Positions 20,636-45,200 of a stretch of 54,296 nucleotides of DNA are shown here, one piece after another. The position numbers were made by a program, and so were the translations under genes. How positions within the stretch are numbered: the first letter of the stretch is position 1; every line of letters begins with the position of its first letter. Under the pieces are notes generated by a model. That model made no database searches. It worked only from the letters and a program-made list of their open reading frames with translations, and was not told the origin of the DNA. This DNA is from Lachnospiraceae bacterium (GTDB lineage: Bacteria; Bacillota; Clostridia; Lachnospirales; Lachnospiraceae), in assembly GCA_016281385.1 (NCBI GenBank), contig JAEEIN010000137.1, forward strand, positions 1 to 54,296, given 5' to 3'.

Positions 20636-20706
20636 GCGGATATAGTACATCGGTAGTACACGAGCTTCCCAAGCTTGCGAGGCGGGTTCGACTCCCGTTA
20701 TCCGCT
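20636..20706 (+). tRNA. tRNA-Gly (anticodon CCC)
   Basis: Cloverleaf read by eye: acceptor GCGGATA/TATCCGC (7 bp), D-stem GTAC/GTAC, anticodon stem CGAGC/GCTTG around loop TTCCCAA, T-loop TTCGACT, discriminator T. The anticodon is CCC. CCA is not encoded. A run of T follows the 3' end, so transcripts may stop or slow there before the next gene 26 bases on. Confidence 0.93.
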
Positions 20707-28240: not shown

Positions 28241-28522
28241 ATGGATATGAGCGAAGGAAACTATCCGGGCTTTGTTTTACGACATGCCGCGGGGATGTGG
28301 AACCTTTTAGATCTTAGCCATCCTGAGTTTCCCTACAAAGAGCCGCTGCGACTCAATGAATCCGGAGCCATTATATGGCAGGAGATTGAACGCGGCATGA
28401 ATTTGGATGCAATATCGCAGGAACTTGTGAAAGAGTACGGAATCTCTCGGGAAGAGGCGGATTCCGATCTTAGAGTTTTCTGCGAAAAACTTAAGGCATT
28501 TGGTGTGCCTTTAGACAATTAA
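28241..28522 (+). CDS. PqqD-like RiPP recognition protein
   Basis: A 93-aa protein starting at ATG 28241 (MDMSEGNYPG) after GGGGTG; the track start is an upstream GTG. It follows the PqqD fold: an N-terminal beta part (FVLRHAAGMWNLLDL), then LNESGAIIWQEIERGMNLDAISQEL and a winged-helix end (GISREEADSDLRVFCEKLKAFGV). PqqD-type proteins bind leader peptides and hand them to modifying enzymes or exporters. It is the first gene of a run reaching 45200 and lies 11 bases before the PelD-type gene. The leader-bearing protein at 45326 is the best candidate partner. In a Pel-type locus this protein is unexpected. Confidence 0.82.
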   Translation: MDMSEGNYPGFVLRHAAGMWNLLDLSHPEFPYKEPLRLNESGAIIWQEIERGMNLDAISQELVKEYGISREEADSDLRVFCEKLKAFGVPLDN

Positions 28523-28533
28523 AGGGGTTTTGT

Positions 28534-30717
28534 ATGAATATTTTAATTGCAGGTGGTGCAGGAACCTTCCTTAATAATATCCTGATCAAACTTCACAAGG
28601 AGGGACATAAGGTATCCGTTCTTACCGGTAATCGTTTCGCCGACAAGGATGCCTATCAGAAGAATTTCGAAGTCTACAAGTTCCAGTATGATGCGAGCTG
28701 CTTAAACGAGATCTTCGAAAGTGTATCCCCCGATGTTACCATATTCATGGGAGCATTTGATACCAACTTTGAATGGAAGAACGAGGAAGCCGATTCGGTA
28801 AAATATACGGCTTCTTTGGCAAATATTCTTATGGGTTACGCCATGCGCGGTAAGGGAAGATTTATCTATCTTTCCTCACATGAAGTGTTTGGCGATAATC
28901 ACGATGCGGATATCACCGAGAATCTTATGACATCTCCCGACGGATTCCGTGCCCAGTCCATCTATCAAGGCGAGCAGATGTGTGAAAACTATCGTTCCAA
29001 CCGTGATATGGATATCGTAACGGTCCGCTTCGATCACCTTTATTGTATTCCCGAGAAGCGCGCGGATATCAAGGATGTTGTTACATCCATGTGCCTTGAA
29101 GCTTTGGAGGAGAAGACGATCCATTATGCAAAGAGCACATTCCTTTCGCCTTTATATGAAAATGACGGCGTAGAGGCCCTTTACAGGATCATTTCATGTG
29201 CAAAACACAACGCAGACGTATATCATGTATCCGCTTCAAATCAGATCTCCGAGGAAGAACTGGCAAATCTCGTCAGAGACAACATGAACCCCGAGTGTGA
29301 TGTTATCTCTACACCCGGTACTTCCGCATACAGATGCGTCCTTTCAAACCGTCTGTACGAGAGCGAATTCGGAAACCCCAGATTCATGGATCTTGCGACC
29401 ATCGTAAAGCGTATCGCAACCACAATGAAGAAGAAAGCATATGTATTCCTCACCGATGAGGAGACAGGCCTTTCCTTCACACAGAGACTTAAGAAGAAGC
29501 TGGGCTGGTTCATCAGCACCATGATCCCCTTCCTTGAGAATGTGATCATCTTCATCCCCTGCTTCATGTTCTATAACAGAGCTGCGGAGAGTTCTTATTT
29601 TGCAAGGCTTGATATCTATCTTCTCTATGTGCTTCTGTTCGCTATCGTATACGGACAGCAGCAGGCAACGCTTTCGGCCCTTCTTGCGGTTGCGGGTTAT
29701 TTCTTCAGAAATACCTATGAACAGACCGGATTCAGACTTCTGCTTGACTCCAATACATACGTATGGGTTGCTCAGCTGTTCATCGTAGGCCTTTCGGTAG
29801 GTTACCTTCGCGATCAGATCATTAAGCTGAGAAAAGAGAACGAAGAGGAGAAGGAATTCTTAAAGCAGCAGATCGAAGACATTCAGGTCATCAACTCCAC
29901 AAACGTCCGCGTTAAGGACGTTCTTGAAACACAGGTTGTTAACCAGACTGATTCCGTAGGAAAGATCTACGGCATCACATCTTCGCTTGATCAGTACAGC
30001 CCTGAAGAGGTTCTCTTCTATGCAGCTCGTACCGTGAGCGAACTTATGAAGACCGAGGATGTTGCCATTTACCAGGTTTCCAATGCCGACTACGCAAGAT
30101 TGTTCTCTTCAACCTCTGCAAAGTCCAGAGTACTTGGTAACTCCGTCCGCTATACCGAAATGGGTGACTGCTACGAAGCCCTCAGAAACCGCAGGGTATA
30201 TATCAACCGTAAGATGGACGGTCGTTACCCCCTTATGGCCAATGCCATTTTTGAAAATGATGAGATGCAGATGATCGTAATGCTTTGGGGTCTCTCATGG
30301 GAGAATATGACTCTCGGCGAGGCAAACAAGCTTGTCATCATCAGTGCACTTATACAGAACGCAGTCCTTCGCGCTAACCGTTACATCCTTGCTCTTGAGG
30401 ATCAGAGATACGAGGAAGGCACGAAGATGCTTGAAAAGGACAGCTTCAGAACTCTGCTTGATGCGTTCTTAAAGGCTGAGAAAGAAGATCTTACCGAATG
30501 TTCGGTAATCAGGGTTAAAACAGATCAGTCCAACAGAGCGGACGTTATCGGCATCATCGAAAAGTCCTTAAGAACATCGGATTATCTCGGAAATCTCGGA
30601 GGAAGCGAGGTATATGCACTTCTTTCCAATACTACGGAAGAGGGCGCAACCTTCGTTCTCAACAGATTCCTTGAGAAGGGCCTTGAGGCCGCAATAGTGG
30701 AGGAAGGAACGATATGA
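28534..30717 (+). CDS. pelD: SDR-PelD fusion, probable c-di-GMP receptor
   Basis: 727 aa. Residues 1-300 form an extended SDR (epimerase-like) domain, but it is degenerate: the third Gly of GxxGxxG is L13, and the YxxxK catalytic Lys is Q148 (Y144QGEQ). Four membrane helices (about 330-425) are followed by a coiled segment, a GAF domain (about 485-615) and a degenerate GGDEF domain (about 630-720). The active site reads GGSEV (689-693), so no cyclase activity is expected. The inhibitory RxxD site is intact as R680-T-S-D683, exactly five residues upstream. TM-GAF-GGDEF with this I-site is the PelD plan. PelD binds c-di-GMP and activates Pel synthesis. Fusion to an SDR domain recalls the separate PelX epimerase. 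Confidence 0.85.
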   Translation: MNILIAGGAGTFLNNILIKLHKEGHKVSVLTGNRFADKDAYQKNFEVYKFQYDASCLNEIFESVSPDVTIFMGAFDTNFEWKNEEADSVKYTASLANILMGYAMRGKGRFIYLSSHEVFGDNHDADITENLMTSPDGFRAQSIYQGEQMCENYRSNRDMDIVTVRFDHLYCIPEKRADIKDVVTSMCLEALEEKTIHYAKSTFLSPLYENDGVEALYRIISCAKHNADVYHVSASNQISEEELANLVRDNMNPECDVISTPGTSAYRCVLSNRLYESEFGNPRFMDLATIVKRIATTMKKKAYVFLTDEETGLSFTQRLKKKLGWFISTMIPFLENVIIFIPCFMFYNRAAESSYFARLDIYLLYVLLFAIVYGQQQATLSALLAVAGYFFRNTYEQTGFRLLLDSNTYVWVAQLFIVGLSVGYLRDQIIKLRKENEEEKEFLKQQIEDIQVINSTNVRVKDVLETQVVNQTDSVGKIYGITSSLDQYSPEEVLFYAARTVSELMKTEDVAIYQVSNADYARLFSSTSAKSRVLGNSVRYTEMGDCYEALRNRRVYINRKMDGRYPLMANAIFENDEMQMIVMLWGLSWENMTLGEANKLVIISALIQNAVLRANRYILALEDQRYEEGTKMLEKDSFRTLLDAFLKAEKEDLTECSVIRVKTDQSNRADVIGIIEKSLRTSDYLGNLGGSEVYALLSNTTEEGATFVLNRFLEKGLEAAIVEEGTI

Positions 30718-31622
30718 CTTGGAGTGTAAGATTTTTTATAATCTTTCTTCTGTTGAATTTTCTCCTTACGGCATGTTACCTCATCGTTGCCATCCACTTC
30801 AGGAAGATCAAACGCCATCTTGCATATGCCCGGGCTGTGGTAATGCTTCTTGTTCCGGGAGCGGGCACTTTGCTGATGGTTCTCGGATGGTTCGGATATG
30901 AATATGTATTCCGTAAGGATGTAGACCTTTCCGACGTTATCTTCAGTAAGGAGAGAGGCCGCGAACTTGTAAGGTCCAACGAGGAGATAGAGCGTAACGT
31001 TGTTTCCCTCGAGGAAGCCATTGCAGTAACGGATAAAGCGGATTTGAGAAGCCTGGTAATGGGTGTTGCCCAGGGTGATTACGAGGATTCCCTTTCAGCT
31101 ATTTCCCTTGCACTTAACAGTGAGGATTCAGAAACTGCCCACTACGCCGCTTCACTTTTACAGGATGCGATCAACGATTTCAGACTTAAGGTCCAGAAGG
31201 GCTACAACAAGGTTCAGAAGAGAGACGAAGAACTTGAAGATACCGCAAAGGGTCTTATCAAGTATATGAACAAGGTTCTAGTTCAGAAGGTATTTACGGA
31301 TCTTGAACAGAGATCCTTCACACATATTCTGGAGGATACCGCACAGATCCTTCACGAGGAGCATCCGGAGGCACTTACCAGCGAACTTTACGAGATCGTC
31401 TGCTTAAGACTTCTGGAGATCAAGGATTTCGAAAAGTGCGAGCTTTGGGCAAACAGAGCAATGGCTCAGTTCCCCAACACCCTTTCATCCCACACCTGCC
31501 TGATCAAATACTTCTTTAACAGCGGGCAGAAGGAAAGATTCTTTGAGGCACTTGACAACTTAAAGAAATCGTCTGTGGTAATCGATAAGGAGACGCTGGA
31601 ACTTATAAGGGCATTCCAGTAG
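30714..31622 (+). CDS. pelE: PelE-like membrane protein with TPR-like repeats
   Basis: 302 aa with two N-terminal membrane helices (about 6-27 and 40-62) followed by a long cytoplasmic helical region with TPR-like features (residues about 100-300, ending ALTSELYEIVCLRLLEIKDFE...). This is the PelE plan, a scaffold in the inner-membrane synthesis complex. Its ATGA overlap with the PelD-type gene fits PelD-PelE partnership. The identification rests on position and topology more than on sequence motifs. Confidence 0.72.
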   Translation: MTWSVRFFIIFLLLNFLLTACYLIVAIHFRKIKRHLAYARAVVMLLVPGAGTLLMVLGWFGYEYVFRKDVDLSDVIFSKERGRELVRSNEEIERNVVSLEEAIAVTDKADLRSLVMGVAQGDYEDSLSAISLALNSEDSETAHYAASLLQDAINDFRLKVQKGYNKVQKRDEELEDTAKGLIKYMNKVLVQKVFTDLEQRSFTHILEDTAQILHEEHPEALTSELYEIVCLRLLEIKDFEKCELWANRAMAQFPNTLSSHTCLIKYFFNSGQKERFFEALDNLKKSSVVIDKETLELIRAFQ

Positions 31623-31657
31623 AGAAGGACATCAGGATTAAGGAGGATATACAGTTT

Positions 31658-33982
31658 ATGTCTATGACAGTTATTACTGTGCTTCAAATAACGGGCATAT
31701 ACTGTGCATATCTGCTTATAACGGTCTTTTTGCCTCATTTCGCCTTCGGAAAAACGGTCAGGTTTAAGAACCGATATGAACGTTTTCTCTTTTATGTGAT
31801 CTCGGGCAACTTTTATATGATCAACCTGGTATATCTGCTTGAGTTGGTGCATATTTCCTATCGTTTAACATTGATCCTGTTTACAGTCGTTCCGGCAATA
31901 ATCATTAAAGTCAGACTTGAGAGGATCCCTCTGGGAAAATACATTCTTGATATATGGGACACCTTAAGAAAGCTGACCGGCGGACAGCTTAAAGTAAAGA
32001 ACGTAAGTGATCAGATAGAGCCGCTGCTTGCACAGAGAAGAAAGAAGTTCTTTGCAAAGATAAAGAAGGTATATCTGAACAATATAGTCGATGTTCTGCT
32101 GACACTTACACTGCTTTTATGTATTCTTTATTTCTTCGGATCGCATCTTCTGAAGACATACGGATATAAAGCCTCCGACCTCATAGTACATAACTACTGG
32201 ATCAACAGCTTAAGTGAAAACAGGCTGTTCTGCGCCGGTATTTATCCCTTTGGTTTTCACAACACCGTGTATTACATACACAAGGTTTTTGGCATAGATA
32301 CGGTTGCTTTATTGAGAACGTTCAGCCTTCATACGGTGACGTTCAATATACTGATGCTTTTCTGTGCACTTAAGCTTCTTTGCAAGTCGAGATATATACC
32401 GTATATCGGCGCGTTTATGTATTCCGTGGTCGACTGCTTCTTGTCCCATACATACGGCAGATATAATGCTCCCCTTCCTCAGGAGTACGGCATTATGTTC
32501 ATATTCCCCGCCATTTATTGCGGGTTCGCATATTTCAGGGCACAGAGAAGGGAAAAGCGCGGTTTATACTCAAAGGACTGCTATCGGTATCTTGCCGGAT
32601 TCGCCATGAGTTTTTCGCTTTGTATCACGACTCACTTTTACGGCGTTATGGCGGCAGGAATTTTTGCGTTTTCAATGGCCACCGGGTTTGCGGTATGGCT
32701 CTTCAGAAAGACCTACTTTAAGCGCGTTATGTGTACGATCTTTATTACCATGGGCATTGCGCTTACGCCCATGTTCCTGGCAGCTGCCGAAGGCATAGAG
32801 ATCGAAGGATCCTTGAGATGGGGGCTGAGCATCATCTTCGGTGTAAAGGGCGATGATGAAGCGGACAAGGAAAACACCGAAACGGAAGAACAGACAGAAA
32901 TTGTTGAAGAAGTTACGGAAGAGGTTGAGGAAGTCGAGGAAGAAGTAGATCGAACGACTCGTCTCCAAAGATTTATAGAGACTTATTCCGAAAAATACGG
33001 CAGTATCGCCGGCCCGCCCGTAGCTTATGTGGAATTGTTAAAAGCCGATCTTAGCTCCAACGTATTCAAGGAGAAGGATCAGAGTCAGATATATGTAGTG
33101 CTTATAGGATATGGAACCCTGCTTGTTTTGGGCGTAGTGATAATGCTTGGAAAAAGGGATAAGATGTACGGTGCCGTGCTTTTGTCAACGGGAATCCACA
33201 TGGTAGTGATCACAACCGTACTGTGCGCAGGTGATATAGGTATTCCGATGCTGATGGACCCTGCCCGAGCCAGCATATATGTGGCTTACAGTGCTGCCTT
33301 TGCAATCCCGATGTTTGTAGATGCAGTCATGTACTTCATCCTTGGATGGGGCACTAAAAAGAAATATGTTTTGTCGATTGCATCATTTGCATTGCTTGCA
33401 TTCTGGGGCGGAATGGTAATACGCACCAACTACATAAGAAAACCTCTTTCTCCCGGTGGAATGGAGACAAACGGCGCAGTTGAGTGCCTTACCAGAATTT
33501 CCATGGAAGAAGAGGACTATTCCTGGACAATATGTTCGGCCAACGATGAAGGCCGTATGGTCTATGACCACGGTTTCCATTATGAGCTGATAGATTTCCT
33601 CAGAGGAATGGAATATGTTGCGGACAAGGGCCGAGTTCGTATGCCTACCAAGTATGTATATATCTTCGTGGAAAAAATCCCGATAGATTACTTCGCGACC
33701 TATTGGGGAAGCGGACAATCCGTATCGAAATTCGGCGCAAAACGTGACCTGCCTTTGGGTAGATCTTTGGGATTGTACACCAAGGCAAATCGATGGATAT
33801 GTATGTCGAGACTGTATTATTGGGCGCAGGCATTTATGGAGCTTTATCCCAATGAGATGTCAGTATATTATGAGACAGACAATTTTGTATGTTACAAGAT
33901 CATACAAAATCCATACAGGTTATTTAATTTTGCAATAGACTATGAATACAACAGCACTAACCCTATGGATGTAGAACCATAG
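31658..33982 (+). CDS. Large membrane protein, GT-C-like
   Basis: 774 aa with about 12-13 predicted membrane helices. Early loop features (SDLIVHNYWINSLS, then GIYPFGFH) resemble membrane glycosyltransferases of the GT-C type, where an acidic residue in the first outer loop is catalytic. Residues about 400-432 are a Glu/Val-rich insert (EEVTEEVEEVEEEVD) between helices. A soluble C-terminal part (about 600-774) follows. AAGGAGG lies upstream. It stands where no standard Pel gene is known to me, between PelE and the DUF2194 protein. It might transfer a sugar or other group to the polymer or lipid carrier. Not assigned to a named family. Confidence 0.7.
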   Translation: MSMTVITVLQITGIYCAYLLITVFLPHFAFGKTVRFKNRYERFLFYVISGNFYMINLVYLLELVHISYRLTLILFTVVPAIIIKVRLERIPLGKYILDIWDTLRKLTGGQLKVKNVSDQIEPLLAQRRKKFFAKIKKVYLNNIVDVLLTLTLLLCILYFFGSHLLKTYGYKASDLIVHNYWINSLSENRLFCAGIYPFGFHNTVYYIHKVFGIDTVALLRTFSLHTVTFNILMLFCALKLLCKSRYIPYIGAFMYSVVDCFLSHTYGRYNAPLPQEYGIMFIFPAIYCGFAYFRAQRREKRGLYSKDCYRYLAGFAMSFSLCITTHFYGVMAAGIFAFSMATGFAVWLFRKTYFKRVMCTIFITMGIALTPMFLAAAEGIEIEGSLRWGLSIIFGVKGDDEADKENTETEEQTEIVEEVTEEVEEVEEEVDRTTRLQRFIETYSEKYGSIAGPPVAYVELLKADLSSNVFKEKDQSQIYVVLIGYGTLLVLGVVIMLGKRDKMYGAVLLSTGIHMVVITTVLCAGDIGIPMLMDPARASIYVAYSAAFAIPMFVDAVMYFILGWGTKKKYVLSIASFALLAFWGGMVIRTNYIRKPLSPGGMETNGAVECLTRISMEEEDYSWTICSANDEGRMVYDHGFHYELIDFLRGMEYVADKGRVRMPTKYVYIFVEKIPIDYFATYWGSGQSVSKFGAKRDLPLGRSLGLYTKANRWICMSRLYYWAQAFMELYPNEMSVYYETDNFVCYKIIQNPYRLFNFAIDYEYNSTNPMDVEP

Positions 33983-34000
33983 GAAAAAGGGGAAAATGGA

Positions 34001-35842
34001 ATGATCTCACGCAGAAATTACTTTATCATCCTGATTGTAATGGGGATAATATTTGTCCTCTTCCAATTCAGCCAGTTTGCCAGATCGGCAGGGAATGATT
34101 TCAACGTAAACAAGTTTATTGAACTTGAATTACCTGAAAAAAGGCCCTGGCAGCAGGTATCTTTGACAGTGGACGATGATCTGCCCTGGGGCGATAAGGA
34201 ATATACCGTATTTGTCGGAGATAAAGGATCAAATATCGGAAGTATCGTTACGCAGTGGACTTATTATACCAAGAGAGATATCCTGATCGCAGACAGTCTG
34301 ACTGATTTTGCAAAGAAAGAGCATGCCCTTCCGGAATTTGTCATTATCGATTCCACCTGTGTGGATTTTGACACAGAGACGCAGATCCTGACAGATATGT
34401 TAAATACCGGTAATTCGGTGATCCTTTGCAATCTTCCGGACGTTAGTGTTATTCAGAACAATCTTGAACTTAAATCCGTATTGGGAATCGACTTCATCAA
34501 AGAAGAAAGTGTGACGGTTGAAGGAATCAAGCTCTTTGCCGGTTTCCTTTTAGGAGGCGAAGAAATATATGAGCCACAGAAGAAGGAGGAGGAGAAGAGA
34601 CAGGATCTGGAGCTTACAATGCCCTGGTATATTCCTACCGGAGGAACCAAGACCTATATGGTCGGCGTTATGGACGAATATTTCGATAGCGTGATCGAGG
34701 ATTATGAGTTTAAAAACGATTATTTTCCTGCAATCATATGGAGAAAGAGCACACCTAACGGACAGATCTTTTGTGTAAACGGAGACTATATGTCAACCAC
34801 CACCGGACTTGGAATTTTAAGTGCGATGAGTTACGAACTGAGCAGCTATCAGTTGTACCCGGTTGTAAATGCACAGAATACGCTGGTTATAGATTTCCCT
34901 CTTATGGCGGATGAAAACGACGAAAGATTCAATGAGATCTATTCCAGATCTTTCAACGAGTTTCAGACAAATGTTATCTGGGCTTCACTTATGGCGCTTG
35001 GCGAGCAGAACGATCTTCAATTCACCTGCTTCATGTCACCAAAATACAATTATTCGGATCCCGCACAGCCCAGTTACGACGAGTATAATACACTCCTTCA
35101 GCTGTTTAATGAAAAGGATGCCGAAGTTGGTCTGTCACTTGAACATGCCGACGGCATTACACTTCTTGAAAAACTTAAGGTTGATAAGGATTATTACGAT
35201 GGAATAGAAAACAGATATCAGAATTCCAGCGCATTCATGGACCTTGCGGACATTGATGAACTGGATGAGGCTGTTAAGGTAGCTTATGTAAGAAATGTTA
35301 GGACCATCGCCTGCGATGCAGATGTTCAGCTTCCTATCCTGAGCTATCTCACCGATGATATCACCTTACAGAGCCTTACAAGTAACACCCGCTATTTTAC
35401 ATACTCTAAGGATCTTATGCTTAAGAGTATCGAAACGGTTCTGGGATATGATAACGCAAAGCTTAACATGAGTCCCGTTATCTGGCCGGAATCCGTTGAT
35501 GATCAGTGGGAGAACATCTACATCGACATGGCTAGTTCGCTTGCAACTTACTGGAGAAGATTCAAGGTATTTGACAATACTACACTTACCGAAAGCGATC
35601 AGAGAGTAAGAACCTTCTTAAACATTGATTCTTCTTCATCCATTGATGGTGATGTGATCACTCTCAACGTTTCCGGAGCAGACGGAAATACGACCTGGTT
35701 CATGCTTCGTACCCACAATGCAAAGATCGATGAGATCGAGGGAGCAACATATAAGAAGGTTGAAACCGATGCTTACCTTCTTACGGTAAATTCGGAAACT
35801 GTAACTATCAGATTAAAGAACACACAGAATATTAATAACTGA
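34001..35842 (+). CDS. DUF2194-like extracytoplasmic protein
   Basis: 613 aa with one N-terminal signal-anchor (about 6-23) and a large outside domain. The N-terminal region (about 50-160) is Rossmann-like (YTVFVGDKG, EFVIIDSTC). Residues about 290-520 resemble the barrel of DUF2194 proteins, which accompany PelF and PelG in Firmicute Pel clusters and are deacetylase-like. The usual deacetylase metal ligands (DD and HxxxH) are not evident, so it may be inactive or use other residues. It sits where PelA/PelA-DA would be expected. Family assignment is by context and general pattern. Confidence 0.62.
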   Translation: MISRRNYFIILIVMGIIFVLFQFSQFARSAGNDFNVNKFIELELPEKRPWQQVSLTVDDDLPWGDKEYTVFVGDKGSNIGSIVTQWTYYTKRDILIADSLTDFAKKEHALPEFVIIDSTCVDFDTETQILTDMLNTGNSVILCNLPDVSVIQNNLELKSVLGIDFIKEESVTVEGIKLFAGFLLGGEEIYEPQKKEEEKRQDLELTMPWYIPTGGTKTYMVGVMDEYFDSVIEDYEFKNDYFPAIIWRKSTPNGQIFCVNGDYMSTTTGLGILSAMSYELSSYQLYPVVNAQNTLVIDFPLMADENDERFNEIYSRSFNEFQTNVIWASLMALGEQNDLQFTCFMSPKYNYSDPAQPSYDEYNTLLQLFNEKDAEVGLSLEHADGITLLEKLKVDKDYYDGIENRYQNSSAFMDLADIDELDEAVKVAYVRNVRTIACDADVQLPILSYLTDDITLQSLTSNTRYFTYSKDLMLKSIETVLGYDNAKLNMSPVIWPESVDDQWENIYIDMASSLATYWRRFKVFDNTTLTESDQRVRTFLNIDSSSSIDGDVITLNVSGADGNTTWFMLRTHNAKIDEIEGATYKKVETDAYLLTVNSETVTIRLKNTQNINN

Positions 35843-35869
35843 TAGATAAAGATACACAAAGGGGAATAT

Positions 35870-37288
35870 ATGAAGATTTGTATTGTAGCCGAAGGATGTT
35901 ATCCATATGTAGTAGGCGGTGTATCCGGATGGATACACAGTATGGTCCAGGCTTTTCCTGAACACGAATTTGTCATTCTCGGAATCATACCCGATCGTGA
36001 ACAGAGCGGTAAATTCGAATATCATTTGCCGGACAATGTAAGCGCTGTTTATGAAGCATATCTGGATGATTTTGACTGGAGCGAAACAAGAAAAGAAGGA
36101 CGACGCACAAAGTTAAGAAAATCGGAATACAGGGCACTTCGAAGCCTTATCATGAACAGGCGTGTTGAATGGGATGCGATCTTTGATATGTTTTCAAAGG
36201 ATACCTTCTCAATTGACGACCTTTTAATGGGTGCCGACTTCTTAAAGATCGTTACGGAGTATTACAACACGAATTATCCGGAAATCGTATTCTCGGATTT
36301 CTTATGGACCATGAGATCCATATATCTTCCGCTTTTCCTGATACTTAAGACTCCGTTGCCTCAGGCAGACATTTATCACTGCGTTGCCACCGGCTATGCC
36401 GGAGTTTTGGGAGCTATGGCAAACAGACTTTACGGAAGCAAGCTTCTTCTTTCAGAGCATGGTATTTATACCCGTGAACGTGAGGAAGAAGTCATCAAAG
36501 CTACATGGGTAAAGGGTATTTACAAAAATATCTGGATCGATCAGTTTAAGAAGATGTCCATGGTAGCATATGAAAAGGCAGAGATCGTAACAAGCCTTTA
36601 TGCACATGCAAGAGAGCTTCAGATCGAACTTGGATGTCCCGAAGAGAAGACCAGGATCACTCCCAACGGTATAGATGTTGAAAGGTTCCGAAATATTCCC
36701 GGTAAGCAGCCCGAGGATGAGGGATGGTTCAATATCGGAGCAGTATTGAGAGTTGCTCCCATAAAGGATGTTAAGACATTGATACAGGCATTTTCTTTTG
36801 CAAAGTCCAGATGCGCAAATCTGAAGCTCTGGATAATGGGTCCTACCAACGAGGATGAGGACTACGCAGCGGAATGTTTTGATCTCGTGGACGCCCTGGG
36901 GGTTAAGGATATAGAGTTCACCGGAAGGGTTGATGTTTCACAGTATCTGGGAAGAATGGATGCGACCATTCTTACAAGTATAAGTGAAGGACAGCCCCTT
37001 ACCATTCTCGAAAGTTATGCAGCGCATGTACCTACCATTGCAACGGACGTAGGAAACTGCCGCGGACTTATCTATGGTGAGGATGACGATGAATTAGGGG
37101 AATCAGGTATTCTTACTCATATCATGAACGTGAGTGAGATCGCCGATGCGATGGTATATCTTGCATCCAATGAAGAAGAACGCCGCAAGATGGGCGATAT
37201 CGGATTCAAGAGACTGAATTCGAAATACCGCATCGAAATGATGAGAGATACATATCGTAGCATTTATGAGGAATTAGGGAATAAATAA
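35870..37288 (+). CDS. pelF: PelF glycosyltransferase (GT4)
   Basis: 472 aa with the characteristic PelF/DUF3492 N-terminus MKICIVAEGCYPYVVGGVSG and a GT4 C-terminal domain (GAVLRVAPIKDVKTLIQAF, ITPNGIDVERF). The EX7E nucleotide-sugar motif is present (SEGQPLTILES). PelF is the cytoplasmic glycosyltransferase that polymerises Pel from a UDP-sugar. Length matches the family. GGGGAAT lies before the ATG, and PelG follows 12 bases later. This is the most secure Pel marker in the window. Confidence 0.93.
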   Translation: MKICIVAEGCYPYVVGGVSGWIHSMVQAFPEHEFVILGIIPDREQSGKFEYHLPDNVSAVYEAYLDDFDWSETRKEGRRTKLRKSEYRALRSLIMNRRVEWDAIFDMFSKDTFSIDDLLMGADFLKIVTEYYNTNYPEIVFSDFLWTMRSIYLPLFLILKTPLPQADIYHCVATGYAGVLGAMANRLYGSKLLLSEHGIYTREREEEVIKATWVKGIYKNIWIDQFKKMSMVAYEKAEIVTSLYAHARELQIELGCPEEKTRITPNGIDVERFRNIPGKQPEDEGWFNIGAVLRVAPIKDVKTLIQAFSFAKSRCANLKLWIMGPTNEDEDYAAECFDLVDALGVKDIEFTGRVDVSQYLGRMDATILTSISEGQPLTILESYAAHVPTIATDVGNCRGLIYGEDDDELGESGILTHIMNVSEIADAMVYLASNEEERRKMGDIGFKRLNSKYRIEMMRDTYRSIYEELGNK

Positions 37289-37300
37289 GGATAAATAACT

Positions 37301-38740
37301 ATGGCAGGAATAGGAATAAGACTTAATAAGATCTTTAACAAAAATTCTATTGCATCGAAGCTGGTAGGTTGTGGATACAGTGTGGTTGTAACCATTGCAC
37401 CCATGCTCATAATCATAACGGTAGTAGTTCTGATGCAGCTTCTGTTAGGTTTTTCAAAACTTGACTTCTATACCAGAGAATTGTATTCATGTACGGTTCT
37501 TTACATATTCGTATTTGCCTTGCTGACAACTTCGCCCTTTAACGCCGTTGTATCAAGGTACATGTCGGATATCATTTACGAGGAAAGATATGAAGACATA
37601 CCTCCCTGCTTCTACATGGGACTTGCTCTTAACACGATCCTTTCCTTCATACCCGCAGCATTTTTCTGCTGGAGAGAGTATCACATAGGCGGTATAAATA
37701 TCTGGTATGTATTTGCCGGATTCACCGGATACATGTGCATGATATTTACCTTCACCGTTATGCTTTACCTTTCCATCTGTAAGGATTATAAGAAGATCTC
37801 CGGTTTCTATGTCCTCGGAATGATGGTAACCCTTGTTCTTTCACTTATCCTTCACTACATATTCGGAGTTCGTACGGATATTGCGATGCTTGTTTCACTT
37901 GACGTGGGACTTCTGCTCATCGCCGTACAGGAATTCTCTCTTTTCAGAAGATACTTTAAAAAGAACTCGGGAAACTATTACGGAATGGTTCCCTATCTTA
38001 AGAAATACTGGCAGCTGGTTGTAGCCGACTTCTTCTATATCTTCGGTCTCTATGTTCACAACTTTGTATTTTGGACTACGGACTGGCACCTTATCGTTGC
38101 GAAGAGTTTTGTATGTAACCAGCCCTACGACATGGCAAGCTGCCTTGCGATGTTTACAAACATTACCGCCAGCGTAATATTCATTACCCGTGTTGAAATG
38201 TATTTCCACACAAAGTACAAGGCATACTCCGAAGCCGTTATCGGTGGAAGAGGTCTTGATATACAGAGCGCAAAGCAGAGAATGTTCCGTCAGCTTATGG
38301 AAGAGATCATGACACTTGTTCGTGTACAGTTTATCGTTACCACACCTGTTTTCATGATCGCCATGATAATCCTTCCCAGATTCGGATTCGGAGGAAACAC
38401 CATGAGAATCTATCCCTGCCTTACGGTCGGATACTTTATCATGTTCATTATGTATTCCTTCATAATCTTCCTGTATTATTTCAACGATCTTACGGGAGCT
38501 GTTGTAACATCCGTTACTTTCTTTATCGTTACGATGCTTGCAAGTATTGTGGCAACTCACCTTCCCGTGGTTTGGTTTGGTACCGGCCTTGTTGTAGGTG
38601 CAGTTGCGGGATTCTCGGTAGCTTACTATCGAATGAGACGTATGGAAAAGACATTGGATGTGCATATTTTCTGCAGCGGCAGCATTCTCAAAAAGGGCCG
38701 CGGAAAGATGCCTTCAAACCTTGTTTACGAGAGGAAATAA
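37301..38740 (+). CDS. pelG: PelG Wzx-like membrane transporter
   Basis: 479 aa with about 12 membrane helices and the PelG-type N-terminus (MAGIGIRLNKIFNKNSIASKL followed by a hydrophobic segment). A cytoplasmic loop has EAVIGGRGLDIQSAKQRM. PelG is a Wzx/MOP-like membrane protein that works with PelD and PelE to move the growing polymer across the membrane. Order PelF-PelG is conserved in Pel loci. Confidence 0.9.
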   Translation: MAGIGIRLNKIFNKNSIASKLVGCGYSVVVTIAPMLIIITVVVLMQLLLGFSKLDFYTRELYSCTVLYIFVFALLTTSPFNAVVSRYMSDIIYEERYEDIPPCFYMGLALNTILSFIPAAFFCWREYHIGGINIWYVFAGFTGYMCMIFTFTVMLYLSICKDYKKISGFYVLGMMVTLVLSLILHYIFGVRTDIAMLVSLDVGLLLIAVQEFSLFRRYFKKNSGNYYGMVPYLKKYWQLVVADFFYIFGLYVHNFVFWTTDWHLIVAKSFVCNQPYDMASCLAMFTNITASVIFITRVEMYFHTKYKAYSEAVIGGRGLDIQSAKQRMFRQLMEEIMTLVRVQFIVTTPVFMIAMIILPRFGFGGNTMRIYPCLTVGYFIMFIMYSFIIFLYYFNDLTGAVVTSVTFFIVTMLASIVATHLPVVWFGTGLVVGAVAGFSVAYYRMRRMEKTLDVHIFCSGSILKKGRGKMPSNLVYERK

Positions 38741-38742
38741 AA

Positions 38743-39126
38743 ATGGGTCCCAGTATTATTTTACGAGTTATTCTCATTTTATCCGGCGGTGCGATGATGC
38801 TCATTACCGTCGGCAGCCTTGCAAAAAGAAGGATGAACGAATCCTTCTGTCTTGCCTGGAGCATCATTTCTTTGGCATTGTTTGCGGCAGGTATTGTTTT
38901 AAGACCTGCTGAATGGCAGAAGTACATAAGCGGAAAGGCCCTGGCCCTGGTACTTATAATCTTCACCGCAATCTTTTACGCAGCATATTTTACGAGTCTT
39001 AAGGTTTCCGAGATCACAAGAAAGAATCAGGAACTGGCCATTCAGGTTTCGTTACTCAATCAGGAAAATGAACGTATATTGAGAAGGCTGGCCGAAGTTA
39101 CCGGAAAAGATGTACGGGAATTATAG
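38743..39126 (+). CDS. DUF2304 small membrane protein
   Basis: The real start is ATG 38743 (MGPSIILRVILIL), two bases after the PelG stop and behind GAGGAAA; the track start at 38572 lies inside pelG. 127 aa with three hydrophobic helices (about 3-22, 33-50, 66-85) and a C-terminal coiled coil (KNQELAIQVSLLNQENERILRR). This is the layout of DUF2304 proteins, which commonly accompany GT2-type glycosyltransferases in polysaccharide clusters; here a GT4 and a GT2 gene follow. The role is unproven. Confidence 0.82.
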   Translation: MGPSIILRVILILSGGAMMLITVGSLAKRRMNESFCLAWSIISLALFAAGIVLRPAEWQKYISGKALALVLIIFTAIFYAAYFTSLKVSEITRKNQELAIQVSLLNQENERILRRLAEVTGKDVREL

Positions 39127-39129
39127 TGT

Positions 39130-40341
39130 ATGAAAAAAATACTGTTTGTTATTAATACTCTTGGCCTCGCAGGTGCCGAAAAGGCTCTTATCGAGATGCT
39201 CAGACGATTGGACACTCCGGATTACGAAGTGTCTCTTTTCGTTTTAATGAATCAGGGCGAATTACGGGAAGAACTTCCGTCAAACGTCAAATTGTTGAAC
39301 AAATGCTTTGATGACTGTCCCATTCACGGAGAAGAAGGTAAGGCACATTTAAAGAAGCATGTTATGAAATCCCTGTTCAAAAGGTGCGCATTCCTGAGAT
39401 GTTTTCCTTATATGACGGTCAATGCATTCAGAATGCTCTTTAAAGGCGGTTTAAAGGTCGATAAGCTGCTTTGGCGTGCCATGGCAGTAAGTGCGGACCG
39501 CTTTGACGAGCACTATGATCTGGCTGTTGCTTATATTGAGGGCGGTGCGGCGTACTATGTCAAAGAGTTTGTAAATGCGGACAGGAAAGCAGGGTTTATA
39601 CATATCGATTACAAAGAGGCAGGATATACTCGAAAGCTTGATAAAAACTGTTACCTCTCATTTGACCGGATATTTACCGTATCGGATGAGGTTAAAGGAG
39701 TATTTTCCGAGGTTTATCCCGAATTAACCGACAGGATCGAAGTATTCCATAATCTTTTGGATATCGAAGGAATAAAGCATAAGGCTGAGTTACCCGGCGG
39801 ATTTGACGACGACTTTGACGGATTGAGAATTGTAACGGTTGGACGTCTTAATCTGCAGAAATCATTCGATGTATCCATAGATGCCATGAAGCTTATAAAG
39901 GATGCGGGTATCAGGGCGAGATGGTATGTTCTCGGCGAGGGTGATCAGAGAGAATTCCTTGAGTCACGAATAGAAATGTTGGGTCTTAAAGAAGATTTTA
40001 TTCTTCTTGGCAATCGTGCAAACCCTTATCCGTATGTTAAGCAATGTGACCTGTACGTACATGCTTCGAAATTTGAAGGAAAGAGTATTGCAATCCAGGA
40101 AGCCCGGATTCTCGGTAAGCCCATTGTTGTCACCGACTGCAGCGGAAACAGGGAACAGATCAATGATGGAATGGACGGAAGGATATGCGACTTTGACAGC
40201 AATGCGATCGCCGAAACCGTTATTGAAATGCTTAAGGACAAGGATAAAGCAACACAAATGGGAATTGCGGCCGCTAACCGCATTTTGGAAGAAGAAAAGA
40301 ATTCTGCTGATCTGCAGAAGCTGATAAATCTTTTAGCATAG
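39130..40341 (+). CDS. GT4 glycosyltransferase
   Basis: 403-aa GT-B glycosyltransferase: N-terminal acceptor domain (FVINTLGLAGAEKALIEML), linker, then a GT4 domain (VTVGRLNLQKSFDVSIDAM, VLGEGDQREFLE) with the EX7E motif (FEGKSIAIQEA). It is cytosolic, with no membrane segment. It lies three bases after the DUF2304 gene and nine before a GT2 gene. It likely adds a sugar in the same polymer or glycan; substrate unknown. Confidence 0.88.
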   Translation: MKKILFVINTLGLAGAEKALIEMLRRLDTPDYEVSLFVLMNQGELREELPSNVKLLNKCFDDCPIHGEEGKAHLKKHVMKSLFKRCAFLRCFPYMTVNAFRMLFKGGLKVDKLLWRAMAVSADRFDEHYDLAVAYIEGGAAYYVKEFVNADRKAGFIHIDYKEAGYTRKLDKNCYLSFDRIFTVSDEVKGVFSEVYPELTDRIEVFHNLLDIEGIKHKAELPGGFDDDFDGLRIVTVGRLNLQKSFDVSIDAMKLIKDAGIRARWYVLGEGDQREFLESRIEMLGLKEDFILLGNRANPYPYVKQCDLYVHASKFEGKSIAIQEARILGKPIVVTDCSGNREQINDGMDGRICDFDSNAIAETVIEMLKDKDKATQMGIAAANRILEEEKNSADLQKLINLLA

Positions 40342-40350
40342 GGGAAAATT

Positions 40351-41160
40351 ATGGAACAGAAGAGAAAAGAGGTACTTATAATAATTCCGGCCTATAACGA
40401 GGCCAAGACCATTGAGCCCGTATTGGACGCTCTGCAGTCACCGCCCATATCAGATGTGTGCGATGTGCTGGTCATGAACGATGCGTCAAAGGACGGAACT
40501 CAGTATATATGTAAGCGTCGCGGGATTCCCGTAATAACCCATGTTTATAATTTGGGTTACGGCTCCGGTCTTCAGGTCGGTTATAAGTATGCCTTCAGAA
40601 GGGGATATGACTATGTCATTCAGATGGATGCAGACGGACAACATGACCCTTCCAATGTTCTGAAAATATATGATGCTTTGAAAACAAAGGACGAGAAGGG
40701 CGGATATCCGGATATAGTCATCGGTTCCAGATTTGTTGACGGTGCCATTGCTTTCCCTGTGCCCATTTCCAAGAAGATAGCCTTTGTGCTTTTCAGAACT
40801 CTCATCAAGTGGGCCACCGGTCAAAAGATAATGGACCCCACTTCAGGTTTACAGGGACTCAGCAAGAGAACATTCTGGTATTATTCCAGATATTCCCATT
40901 TTGATGATAAATATCCGGACGCAAATATGCTTATGCAGATGAAGATGTTGGGATATAATGTTAAAGAGATCCCTTCGGTAATGTATGCGAGAACGGAAGG
41001 AACAAGCATGCACTCCGGAATCATCAAGCCCATGGTCTATATGTTCAGAATGGCATTTTCGATCATTGCCGTATGGGCCAGGGTAAGAATTTACGGTATG
41101 GATAAAGGAGCTATAAATGAGCAGGCAATCATCGAAGACTTACAAAAGAGCGTCTTTTAA
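40351..41160 (+). CDS. GT2 glycosyltransferase, polyprenol-phosphate sugar synthase type
   Basis: 269-aa GT-A enzyme with LIIIPAYNEAKTIEPVLDAL and DxD region QMDADGQHDP. The layout resembles dolichyl-phosphate mannose synthase-type enzymes without C-terminal membrane helices. Such enzymes make lipid-linked sugars, which would be the donor type for GT-C enzymes such as the neighbour at 31658. That functional link is inference. Its end overlaps the next gene by 44 bases. Confidence 0.85.
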   Translation: MEQKRKEVLIIIPAYNEAKTIEPVLDALQSPPISDVCDVLVMNDASKDGTQYICKRRGIPVITHVYNLGYGSGLQVGYKYAFRRGYDYVIQMDADGQHDPSNVLKIYDALKTKDEKGGYPDIVIGSRFVDGAIAFPVPISKKIAFVLFRTLIKWATGQKIMDPTSGLQGLSKRTFWYYSRYSHFDDKYPDANMLMQMKMLGYNVKEIPSVMYARTEGTSMHSGIIKPMVYMFRMAFSIIAVWARVRIYGMDKGAINEQAIIEDLQKSVF

Positions 41161-42454
41161 GGCACCTCGATTAAAGGAAATTTCTGATGAACTTGTTAAT
41201 CCTTACAGAGGCTGGTATCAGATACACACCTTTAAGCTCGATGAAGATATAGATATGACTGACAGGGAGTATACCCTTAATCACACGGATACACTGGCGC
41301 TGATCCTTGTGGATATCAGTGCCTACAGGAGTAGCGCACTTGATGACAAGGCAATCAATAATCTAAGGAATATATTTGCATTCTTCAGAGATTACAGACT
41401 GGATATGATCGTGCGAGTAGTATATGACACCGTGGGAAAATGTCTTGAGACGGAGCCCTCGGAGGAAACAACGATCATGGAGCACATGGATCAGCTGGTT
41501 CCCATAATGAAGGATTACGCCGCTAATATTTTCGTTTATCAAGGCCTTCTTATCGGTAACTGGGGTGAGATGCACTCTTCAAAGTTTCTTTCTCCCGCCC
41601 GCCTCAGCCGACTGGCTACGGACTTCCTTGAGAACATTCACGGAACGGCTTTCCTTGCGGTACGTCGTCCGGCTTATGTTCGCATTCTTTTTCCCGAAGG
41701 AGAGGATTTAAGGCAGAACAGGGTAGGTATCTTTGATGATGCCATCCTTGCTTCACCCACCCATTTGGGAACCTTTGGTGAGAAACCTGCCAAGGATGTA
41801 AGGCGTGAACAGTCATGGCTTCCCAAGGAAGAAATAAAGTACGTTTCGTCTCTCTGCGACCGTGTTCCTTATGGTGGTGAAGGACTTTATTCGGAGGAAA
41901 AGGATGCCATTTCTTCCGTAAGGCATTCGCTGAAAGCAATGTCGGAGTATTTCTCCACTCTTCATGTTACATACTTAAACAGAATACATGACATCAACTT
42001 CGTAGAGCATTTAAAGACTCTTAAATGGAACGGCAGAGATCTCTACAGAGGAATGGACGGCTACGAGTACATAGGCAGACATCTCGGCTACCGTTTCGTT
42101 CTCAGAAAGGTGGCATGTTCGTTGCTGGAGAGCGACAACAGCATTCTCCGCTGGGATATAACCATTGAAAATATAGGTTTTGCCCGTATTTTCTTTAAGA
42201 ACGGCTGCACAATGCGTGCAACGGATATTTACGGAAATGAAGTTGTTTTGGAACTGGCTGACTGGATCGAATTAAACCAGATAGCATCCGGGGAGAAGCA
42301 TACTTTCGTGTGCATGACACCCGTAGTTGTGGGCAAGGTTTATCTTTCTTTCACCAAGGAAGATACAAAGCAGGCAATTTATTTTGCCAATCGTAATCAG
42401 ATTGACAGTGAGTTCAACTCTGAAATCTATTTGGGAAGTATTAAATTACATTAA
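41117..42454 (+). CDS. DUF4874/DUF4832-like protein, possible glycosidase fold
   Basis: 445 aa. The N-terminal part (about 10-200) contains NPYRGWYQIHTF and LILVDISAYRSS, as in DUF4874; the C-terminal part (about 215-440) resembles DUF4832 (GIFDDAILASPTHLGTFGE and a late beta-rich end). These paired domains look like a TIM-barrel plus beta-sandwich hydrolase. The start at ATG 41117 is well supported by AAAGGAG, making a 44-base overlap with the GT2 gene. No signal peptide is visible, which is odd for a polymer hydrolase. It could replace the PelA hydrolase domain or act in the cytoplasm. Confidence 0.7.
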   Translation: MSRQSSKTYKRASFKAPRLKEISDELVNPYRGWYQIHTFKLDEDIDMTDREYTLNHTDTLALILVDISAYRSSALDDKAINNLRNIFAFFRDYRLDMIVRVVYDTVGKCLETEPSEETTIMEHMDQLVPIMKDYAANIFVYQGLLIGNWGEMHSSKFLSPARLSRLATDFLENIHGTAFLAVRRPAYVRILFPEGEDLRQNRVGIFDDAILASPTHLGTFGEKPAKDVRREQSWLPKEEIKYVSSLCDRVPYGGEGLYSEEKDAISSVRHSLKAMSEYFSTLHVTYLNRIHDINFVEHLKTLKWNGRDLYRGMDGYEYIGRHLGYRFVLRKVACSLLESDNSILRWDITIENIGFARIFFKNGCTMRATDIYGNEVVLELADWIELNQIASGEKHTFVCMTPVVVGKVYLSFTKEDTKQAIYFANRNQIDSEFNSEIYLGSIKLH

Positions 42455-42459
42455 GCAAA

Positions 42460-44007
42460 ATGGGTAATAAAACCGAATCCAGAACAGAATATTCGGCGAG
42501 AAATATAACATTTGCAATGGTGGGAAGGGTTGCGGCCCTTCTTATGGGGTTTGTTTCGCGTGTAGTATTCACCCACACACTCGATACGGAGTATGTGGGT
42601 GTTAATGGTCTGTTTACCGATATCCTCCACGTTCTGTCACTGACGGAGCTGGGCTTCGGAACCGCCATCACCTATGCCCTTTATAAGCCAATCGCCGAGG
42701 ACGATATAGAAAAACAAAAATCCTATATGAAGATCTACCGCCTGTTTTACCATATTGTTGCGGTGATCGTACTTGCAATGGGATTATGCGTCACACCCTT
42801 CCTGGATGTGATAATCAAAAACAAACCGAATATACCGCATCTTACGCTGATCTACCTGATGTATCTTGCGAATACGGTGATTTCCTATCTTCTTGTTTAT
42901 AAGAGGACGCTGATAGATGCCCATCAGAAGAGTTACATCGGAGAGATCGTCAGGACAACCTCCTGGGTCATACAGACTCTCATACAGATCATAATTCTTG
43001 TTGTTACAAAGAACTTTATCCTTTATCTTTCCATAAACCTGCTCAGTACGTTGTGCTTTAACCTGGTTATATCCTTTATAGCGGAAAAGATGTATCCCTA
43101 TCTTAAGGACAAGGAAGTGGAGCCCCTTGAGCCCGAGGAGAGAAAGGATATCTTTAAAAATGTGGGAGCACTGATCCTTAACAAGATCGGAGATGTTGCG
43201 ATAAACAACACGGATAATATCCTTTTGTCTTCCCTTGTTGGCATTGTGGCAGCGGGGTTATATTCAAACTATTATCTGATCATTGATTCAGTGAAGATGG
43301 TCTTTGCCCAGATCTTTAACGGTATTACCGCAAGCGTGGGTAATCTGGGAGTTTTAGAGAATAAAGGCCGGGTTAAAAAGATATTTGAAGGCTGCTTTTT
43401 CATGGGACATTGGATGAACGGAGTGGCCGCCATAGCCCTTTATGAGGTCCTGAATCCCTTCGTAGCCATGAGCTTTGGTGAAAACTATGTTTTCGAAGCA
43501 AACATAACGCTTATATTATGTATTAATTTCTACATAAACGGAATGAGACAGGCGACTCTGGCATTCAGAAATTCCCTGGGATTATTCTATTACGACAGAT
43601 ATAAATCCATTCTGGCAGCTATCATCAACCTGGGTGCTTCCATTGTTCTCGGATTATGGCTGGGTACCGTGGGAATCTTCCTTGGAACTCTTGTAAGCCT
43701 GATAACCACATTATTCTGGATAGAGCCCTATGTGTTATATAAAAAGAGGCTCGAAAGTCCGGTATTACCCTATTTTGCCAAGTATTTCATCTATTCGGCA
43801 TCCACTGCGGGGCTTTGGCTTGTTTGTGATCTTATATGCAGGAATATACAGGGAGCACATTTTAAGGTTTGTCTGCTTAGGGGTATCATTTGTGTTGCTG
43901 TCGTGGATCTGGGATTTCTTTTATTGTTTTTCAGAACAAAGGAATTTAAACTTCTATGGAACAAGGCAATGTTTATTCTCGGGAAAAAACTGAAAAAGGC
44001 GCAATGA
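42460..44007 (+). CDS. Wzx-type polysaccharide flippase
   Basis: 515-aa MOP-superfamily exporter with about 12-14 membrane helices. It begins ARNITFAMVGRVAALLMGFVSR and has VGVNGLFTDILHVLSLTELGFG, typical of Wzx-like proteins. No clear ribosome site precedes the ATG; it may rely on coupling to the gene five bases upstream. A second flippase beside PelG implies that a separate lipid-linked glycan is also made here. Confidence 0.88.
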   Translation: MGNKTESRTEYSARNITFAMVGRVAALLMGFVSRVVFTHTLDTEYVGVNGLFTDILHVLSLTELGFGTAITYALYKPIAEDDIEKQKSYMKIYRLFYHIVAVIVLAMGLCVTPFLDVIIKNKPNIPHLTLIYLMYLANTVISYLLVYKRTLIDAHQKSYIGEIVRTTSWVIQTLIQIIILVVTKNFILYLSINLLSTLCFNLVISFIAEKMYPYLKDKEVEPLEPEERKDIFKNVGALILNKIGDVAINNTDNILLSSLVGIVAAGLYSNYYLIIDSVKMVFAQIFNGITASVGNLGVLENKGRVKKIFEGCFFMGHWMNGVAAIALYEVLNPFVAMSFGENYVFEANITLILCINFYINGMRQATLAFRNSLGLFYYDRYKSILAAIINLGASIVLGLWLGTVGIFLGTLVSLITTLFWIEPYVLYKKRLESPVLPYFAKYFIYSASTAGLWLVCDLICRNIQGAHFKVCLLRGIICVAVVDLGFLLLFFRTKEFKLLWNKAMFILGKKLKKAQ

Positions 44008-45200
44008 CCACCGGGTTAAGGGATGATGAAATCTGGCTTTGTTCGGCATTAAAGGCTTCGATCAATGGTTCGGAATTTTCAAAAGCCGATGAAACGGTTG
44101 AAAGGGAAGTCCTCAAGAATGATAAAGGCCGTGGTGTGCTTGCCCTTCTTTATCCGTTTTTTGATGACATATCGGATCTCGGGCTAAAAAAAGCTGTTGA
44201 ATACTCGGCAAAGAATAATGCAGTCAGTTGTTATCGTCTCTTTCAGAATACTCGGTATATTCTTGAAAAACTGGAAGCTGAAGGAATAGATTGTGCAGTT
44301 CTTAAAGGCGTTGACCTGGCAAGCAGATATCCCGTTCCGGAATACAGAGGGTTTGCTGATATAGATCTTTTTATCCGAGACAGGGAGCAGATCGACAACG
44401 CCGTACGGATAATTGAAAACTGTGGATTTGAAAAGGAAAAAGAACAAAGCTCCATACATCACATAGCCTTTTTGAATCAGGAACGGATTGAGATAGAACT
44501 CCATACGGATATGGTCCGTCCTTTTGACAGCGAGGCCGTCAACAGCAGGATCGCAGATATATATAAGTCAACGGACTATAGTTTCTTTGAAAGGGAATTG
44601 TTCGGAGTCCGATTCAAAGTACTTCCGGATTCATTGAACGGCTTTTATCTTCTTTTACATACACTCCAGCATTTTCTGGCTGCGGGCTTCGGATTGAGGC
44701 TTCTGCTTGACTGGATGGCCTTCTGGAACGGTGTGGGGGATGATAAAGCATTTACGGAATTTAAGGCTCATTGTGATTCATGCAAGGTCAGAGGATTTTC
44801 TGATGCCATAACCGGCATATGTGTGAAATATCTGGGGATGTCTCCCGAGAGAGCGGAAAAGATCATGAGTCCCGGCTATTTGCAGGCTTTGGATAAAAAT
44901 GAAGTTATAGATAAACTGGCGCGAGAAGTGTTTGATGCCGGCCGGTTTGGCGAAGGCACCGGAAGACTTGTAAATTTGAGGAATCCTTCGATCTTTGGAT
45001 TGATCAAGGAATTTCATCATCAGACCAGGATCAACTATCCCAAAGCCTCAAGAATTTTTCTTATATGGCCGATATTATGGATAGGTTCGTTGATCCGTTT
45101 TATGAAGAATAACAAGACTGTGAGACATACCGGCGCAAAAGAGATCATCGGAAATGCCAAAAAGCGAAGCCGCCTTACAAAGGAAATTGGGTTATGGTAA
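44004..45200 (+). CDS. Nucleotidyltransferase-family protein (NTP_transf_5)
   Basis: The start chosen is ATG 44004 (MTTGLRDDEIWL), overlapping the flippase stop as ATGA; the track start at 43956 is less likely. 398 aa with the PF14907-type core CAVLKGVDLASRYPVPEYRG followed by the DxD pair in FADIDLFI, and IEIELHTDM as a further acidic strand. Proteins of this family occur in lasso-peptide and other RiPP clusters, for example the paeninodin type, next to PqqD and ABC genes. Here the PqqD gene is at 28241 and a leader-bearing protein follows, so a role in modifying that protein is plausible. Sugar-related nucleotidyl transfer is an alternative. Confidence 0.8.
   Translation: MTTGLRDDEIWLCSALKASINGSEFSKADETVEREVLKNDKGRGVLALLYPFFDDISDLGLKKAVEYSAKNNAVSCYRLFQNTRYILEKLEAEGIDCAVLKGVDLASRYPVPEYRGFADIDLFIRDREQIDNAVRIIENCGFEKEKEQSSIHHIAFLNQERIEIELHTDMVRPFDSEAVNSRIADIYKSTDYSFFERELFGVRFKVLPDSLNGFYLLLHTLQHFLAAGFGLRLLLDWMAFWNGVGDDKAFTEFKAHCDSCKVRGFSDAITGICVKYLGMSPERAEKIMSPGYLQALDKNEVIDKLAREVFDAGRFGEGTGRLVNLRNPSIFGLIKEFHHQTRINYPKASRIFLIWPILWIGSLIRFMKNNKTVRHTGAKEIIGNAKKRSRLTKEIGLW

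Follow-up and report, generated by a model that had tools for sequence, protein, structure and literature searches.

A pel-like locus in the genome of a Lachnospiraceae bacterium encodes a PelD protein that is very likely a c-di-GMP receptor and that carries an SDR domain stripped of its catalytic residues at its N-terminus. Our overall explanation, to which we give a probability of a little under four in five (0.78), is that c-di-GMP gates PelD, that the dead SDR serves for docking, and that the product is probably not deacetylated Pel. Homology and conservation suggest that c-di-GMP would bind an I-site triad (R680, D683 and R711) in a dead GGDEF domain. By analogy with P. aeruginosa and B. 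cereus, the bound PelD would switch on a membrane complex of PelD, PelE, PelF and PelG, in which PelF would polymerize the polysaccharide and PelG would export it. The dead but still constrained, epimerase-derived SDR most probably serves PelE and PelF as a module for docking or assembly in the cytoplasm; this is the weakest step, proposed from the retention of the domain and its new conserved positions. The polymer is probably not deacetylated in the manner of Pel because the PelA of the locus is without its catalytic residues.

Across the PelDs sampled, selection keeps the c-di-GMP triad almost without exception, and the adjoining SDR and, in a clade of enlarged loci, the PelA deacetylase are dead. 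The fusion of SDR and PelD is already known; the loss of the deacetylase around it seems to be undescribed. The locus also suggests c-di-GMP as a regulator of surface sugars in major bacteria of the gut and rumen. The stretch of DNA analyzed, hereafter the window, comprises positions 1-54,296 of contig JAEEIN010000137.1 (assembly GCA_016281385.1), and the locus features with coordinates from 28241 to 42454 given below lie on its forward strand.

PelD and its c-di-GMP site

The pelD reading frame (28534-30717) begins with ATG, is uninterrupted by stops and encodes 727 aa in the order SDR, membrane helices, GAF and degenerate GGDEF. An AlphaFold model built with 23 homologues has a mean pLDDT of 82 over the full length and 87 over residues 470-727. 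Of these domains Pfam recognized the SDR alone (RmlD_sub_bind, E 1.7e-16; Epimerase, E 3.5e-15), which occupies residues 1 to about 300 (28534-29433). Model helices and hydropathy place the membrane segment at residues of about 326-435 (29509-29838). The GAF domain (residues about 476-635; 29959-30438) was recognized from the model and from Foldseek matches to PelD and GAF domains, and GAF_3 was matched in 5 of 23 members (best E 7e-8). The degenerate GGDEF domain (residues about 636-722; 30439-30699) was identified with Foldseek and with profiles that scored below cutoff, namely NCBIfam TIGR00254 (E 0.006 at 672-712) and Pfam GGDEF (E 0.019).

The identification of the protein as PelD, made in the initial annotation, is borne out by its modeled structure and its neighbors. 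When residues 470-727 were searched against the PDB with Foldseek, the best matches were to P. aeruginosa PelD (4etz, E 7.8e-9; also 4eu0, 4etx and 4dmz), the c-di-GMP complex 4dn0 was among the matches, and PelD structures held ranks 1, 3, 4 and 6-9. Global TM-scores of the C-terminal model against solved PelD structures are low (0.35-0.42) because the GAF and GGDEF domains are differently oriented. In the window pelD is accompanied by pelE, pelA, pelF and pelG.

The same annotation described an intact I-site in a dead GGDEF domain, with RTSD at 680-683 (30571-30582) separated by five residues from GGSEV at 689-693 (30598-30612), and the reading frame matches these positions and this spacing exactly, the intervening residues being YLGNL. 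The GG(D/E)EF residues of an active diguanylate cyclase are absent, with GGSEV in their place. In a first set of 23 homologues the sole invariant residues of the GGDEF domain were R680, D683 and R711 (30664-30666). The proposed conservation of the I-site held in a larger set, 62 PelD proteins drawn from 60 loci: R680 and D683 are present in 62 of 62 proteins and R711 in 61, with Lys in the remaining one. No other column of the domain, whose top-residue frequency otherwise averages 0.42, is as conserved as R680 and D683, so that the RTSD motif is beyond chance. R711 is by position the third c-di-GMP contact, equivalent to R402 in P. aeruginosa and R395 in B. cereus; it lies 31 residues downstream of the RxxD motif, compared with 35 in P. 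aeruginosa and 32 in B. cereus, where the contacts are R363, D366 and R395 (PMC7112168). GGSEV itself is not conserved among homologues, in which the commonest residues are D at 690 and G at 691 and the near relatives read DDNAI, KDGCL or EDGRF. We therefore rejected it as a conserved GGDEF relic; the likeness is confined to the window protein, though it is rightly placed.

The genome of the window has 27 GGDEF matches, 26 of them over cutoff, and 11 EAL matches, and GGDEF proteins are present in all 30 of the other PelD-bearing genomes examined. Taken together, the conserved Arg-Asp-Arg triad, the match to the PelD fold and a genome rich in GGDEF and EAL domains make it very likely that the window PelD is, as predicted from its sequence, a c-di-GMP receptor. 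An alternative is that the I-site is vestigial and that the protein has ceased to respond to c-di-GMP, as with streptococcal PelDs, which have lost the GGDEF domain (PMC7112168); the completeness of the triad in 61 of 62 proteins and the abundance of GGDEF and EAL domains make this very improbable. A c-di-GMP riboswitch was considered as a second layer of control and rejected, as Rfam matched nothing close to pelD, either in the window or in seven relative loci; a tRNA at 20636-20706 is the window's only Rfam match.

In genome G274 a gene for a GGDEF protein (G274:C34:15242-15694) shares the strand of pelD at a distance of about 1.4 kb and perhaps encodes a dedicated cyclase. Genome G513 has only one GGDEF protein and a pelD split by a frame change (L058), which is perhaps a decaying system. 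Stand-alone proteins of 328-346 aa that resemble the GAF-GGDEF part of PelD occur in G1028 and G739 (L141 and L142), where no neighboring pel genes were found.

The N-terminal SDR domain

The initial annotation regarded a single polypeptide of SDR and PelD as unusual. Such fusions were published in 2020 from Brevibacillus, streptococci, clostridia and actinobacteria, with an SDR that is seemingly intact in Brevibacillus and degenerate in the other three groups, and with the GGDEF domain absent from streptococci (Whitfield et al., PMC7112168); in our set, 60 of 62 PelDs have an N-terminus of SDR length. By its sequence the window PelD is a further member of the known Gram-positive type with a degenerate SDR plus GGDEF. 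It shares with the SDR-PelD of Gram-positive pelDEADAFG loci the order SDR, membrane helices, GAF and GGDEF, as well as the degeneration of the SDR seen in clostridia and the retention of RxxD where GGDEF is present (PMC7112168). The PelDs of P. aeruginosa (4dn0, 4etz) and B. cereus have the same GAF domain and dead GGDEF with RxxD but no N-terminal SDR. Streptococcal PelD, class IV of the four PelD classes distinguished in a 2025 paper that states the function of the degenerate SDR to be unknown (PMC12345266), shares the degenerate SDR, membrane helices and GAF domain; unlike the window protein it is without a GGDEF domain and therefore outside c-di-GMP control.

The closest folds to the SDR found with Foldseek are GalE (4zrm, E 5.8e-16) and PelX (6wjb, E 5.7e-15). 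We compared its residues with the intact SDRs of loci L010 and L053 and with stand-alone epimerases. The former NAD motif GxxGxxG has become GGAGTFLN (residues 7-14; 28552-28575), aligned to GGYGFIGS of both intact proteins, with loss of the third Gly, and RAQSI (139-143; 28948-28962) stands at the site of the catalytic YxxxK, where L010 has YDVSK and L053 YGINK. Also gone are the acidic NAD residue after the second strand, HLAA, and two nucleotide-sugar positions, the asparagine in NVYGP and the arginine in RDF. Only the SS..V.G serine and some of the Gly loop (G7, G8 and G10) survive.

PelX (6wj9, 6wjb), a UDP-GlcNAc C4-epimerase, likewise has an SDR fold and a link to Pel; it is, however, a separate and active enzyme that uses S121 and Y146, whereas the window SDR has lost the Tyr and the Lys. 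An active UDP-GlcNAc/UDP-Glc C4-epimerase of this kind, channeling substrate to PelF, would suit the fold, the existence of intact SDR-PelDs in L053 and L010, and the presence in G467 of a separate GalE-type gene directly upstream of its SDR-PelD. Against it, YxxxK has become R...I, the third Gly is lost, HLAA and NVYGP have been rewritten, and YxxxK occurs in none of the enlarged-locus relatives; across the larger PelD set the full motif is confined to L088 (G147) and L091 (G399). The genome also encodes a separate bona fide GalE (C109; 474 bits, with the cutoff at 262). With catalytic and cofactor residues lost and a GalE elsewhere, we abandoned the PelX-like substrate supply that had been proposed and rejected the active-epimerase reading, which is extremely improbable.

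Nevertheless, the domain has not been left to drift in the enlarged-locus clade, where at least 90% conservation is found in 39 SDR residue columns, plus one column with a shared gap. These columns include G73, D76, F50, Y52 and P173 and are mostly not common to compact loci; G73, D76 and P173 lie in what were once the loops for cofactor and sugar. Counting against our overall explanation, the SDR evolves away faster than the membrane and GAF parts, and in the per-domain dN/dS comparison synonymous sites are saturated. We conclude from the alignments that the SDR is a conserved pseudoenzyme, probably with a structural or a sensory/regulatory task. Ligand sensing is possible, and in its fuller form, in which binding of a dinucleotide or nucleotide sugar would gate PelD jointly with c-di-GMP, would accord with the retained fold and partial Gly motif, with the clade-specific residues at the former ligand loops, and with the appearance of human MAT2B, a regulatory SDR subunit, among the Foldseek fold matches. 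The domain no longer has the canonical contacts to NAD and UDP, and we hold such a sensor to be unlikely, preferring the docking module.

The GalE-like gene of G467 and the PelD that follows it (L092, 3423-6626; the same region as L057), in which the SDR is degenerate, form a possible intermediate with a separate active epimerase copy. In G971 (L123), two adjoining SDR-PelD genes are divergently oriented.

The enlarged pel-like locus and its product

Upstream, 11 bases separate pelD from the end of a small PqqD-family gene (28241-28522; Pfam PqqD, E 6.4e-12), which several relatives also have at this position. Downstream of pelD is a pelE-like gene (30714-31622), assigned by position and by homologues in the compared pel loci, and then a gene (31658-33982) for a multi-pass membrane protein of 774 aa with about 12 hydrophobic segments, which we call M774. 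The latter is conserved across enlarged loci, with invariant D174, H178, W181 and HFY at 326-328. The window protein had no match in Pfam, NCBIfam or PDB, and one of 14 M774 members gave a weak match to DUF6541 (E 4.8e-4); M774 is possibly a membrane glycosyltransferase. The pelA-like gene (DUF2194; 34001-35842) is followed by pelF (35870-37288; NCBIfam PelF, 376 bits), which keeps the EX7E motif as SEGQPLTILE, and by pelG (37301-38740; Pfam PelG, E 1e-138), the only copy in the genome. Domain matches and co-occurrence assign DUF2304, GT4, GT2 and DUF4874/DUF4832 genes (38743-42454) to the locus, after which come a flippase-like gene and more.

The PelADA deacetylase of B. cereus uses D262, D263, H350, H354, P405, R458 and H488 and must be catalytically active for Pel to be made (PMC13254593). 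In the aligned window PelA, DD has become ID, HGYNH has become SLEHA and HPDD has become NMSP, so that it is not the competent PelADA deacetylase of a canonical pelDEADAFG locus. With the triad and the PelF EX7E kept and the PelA motifs lost, c-di-GMP control and polymerization look intact and deacetylation does not. Compared with the Gram-positive pelDEADAFG loci of PMC7112168, the PelD protein is alike in kind, but the locus is larger and the PelA deacetylase residues are lost.

Comparison of 20 kb regions separated two classes of locus. Compact loci have pelDEAFG only, and enlarged loci add M774, DUF2304 and GT genes, often with a PqqD-family gene just before pelD. All 15 compact loci scored retain the full set of deacetylase residues (DD, HxxxH, PP, R and HPD); 44 others have lost them, or 43 when L149, with its fragmented pelA, is discounted. 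M774 accompanies 40 of the 44 deacetylase-dead loci and a PqqD-like gene 21 of them, compared with none of the 15 compact loci in either case. A PelF+PelG tree of 23 loci unites the enlarged loci in one clade (support 100/100) with a single change for the loss in PelA, so the counts of 44 and 15 are not independent events; Fisher p-values, which take no account of ancestry, carry no weight here as tests. A strict link between death of the SDR and death of PelA was rejected, as the compact loci L093-L097 and L100 combine a dead SDR with a live PelA.

Given that B. cereus Pel needs an active PelADA, the 43 loci without these residues would require another product or another release route. It is rather improbable that the window locus makes ordinary, partly deacetylated Pel with a deacetylating enzyme encoded elsewhere. 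PelF and PelG are conserved, and the window encodes a DUF4832 protein, a domain also borne by an S. intermedius hydrolase that disrupts Pel aggregates (PMC12345266); but in B. cereus Pel depends on catalytic activity of the PelADA of the locus itself (PMC13254593), the window PelA is dead, and the locus has gained further glycosyltransferases and a flippase-like gene. The window genes that were scanned include no polysaccharide deacetylase.

On balance, we lean toward the view that the window represents a widespread, undescribed class of pel-derived loci in Lachnospiraceae, with a pseudo-deacetylase PelA, a pseudo-epimerase PelD receptor, added glycosyltransferases, both membrane and soluble ones, and in many cases a PqqD-like protein, in which c-di-GMP would gate a non-deacetylated and probably hetero- or decorated non-Pel polysaccharide. 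We found no description of a deacetylase-dead class in the open-licence papers searched, which included the main text of PMC7112168. As far as the main text of that paper describes them, the pel loci of Roseburia likewise lie inside a larger capsule or teichoic-like cluster in Lachnospiraceae, and loss of the PelA active site is absent from that main text. An artefact of the metagenome-assembled genome is unlikely, as the single-contig genomes G1052 and G717 have the same layout. An NTP_transf_5 gene (43956-45200) belongs to the same cluster as the PqqD-family gene and pelD.
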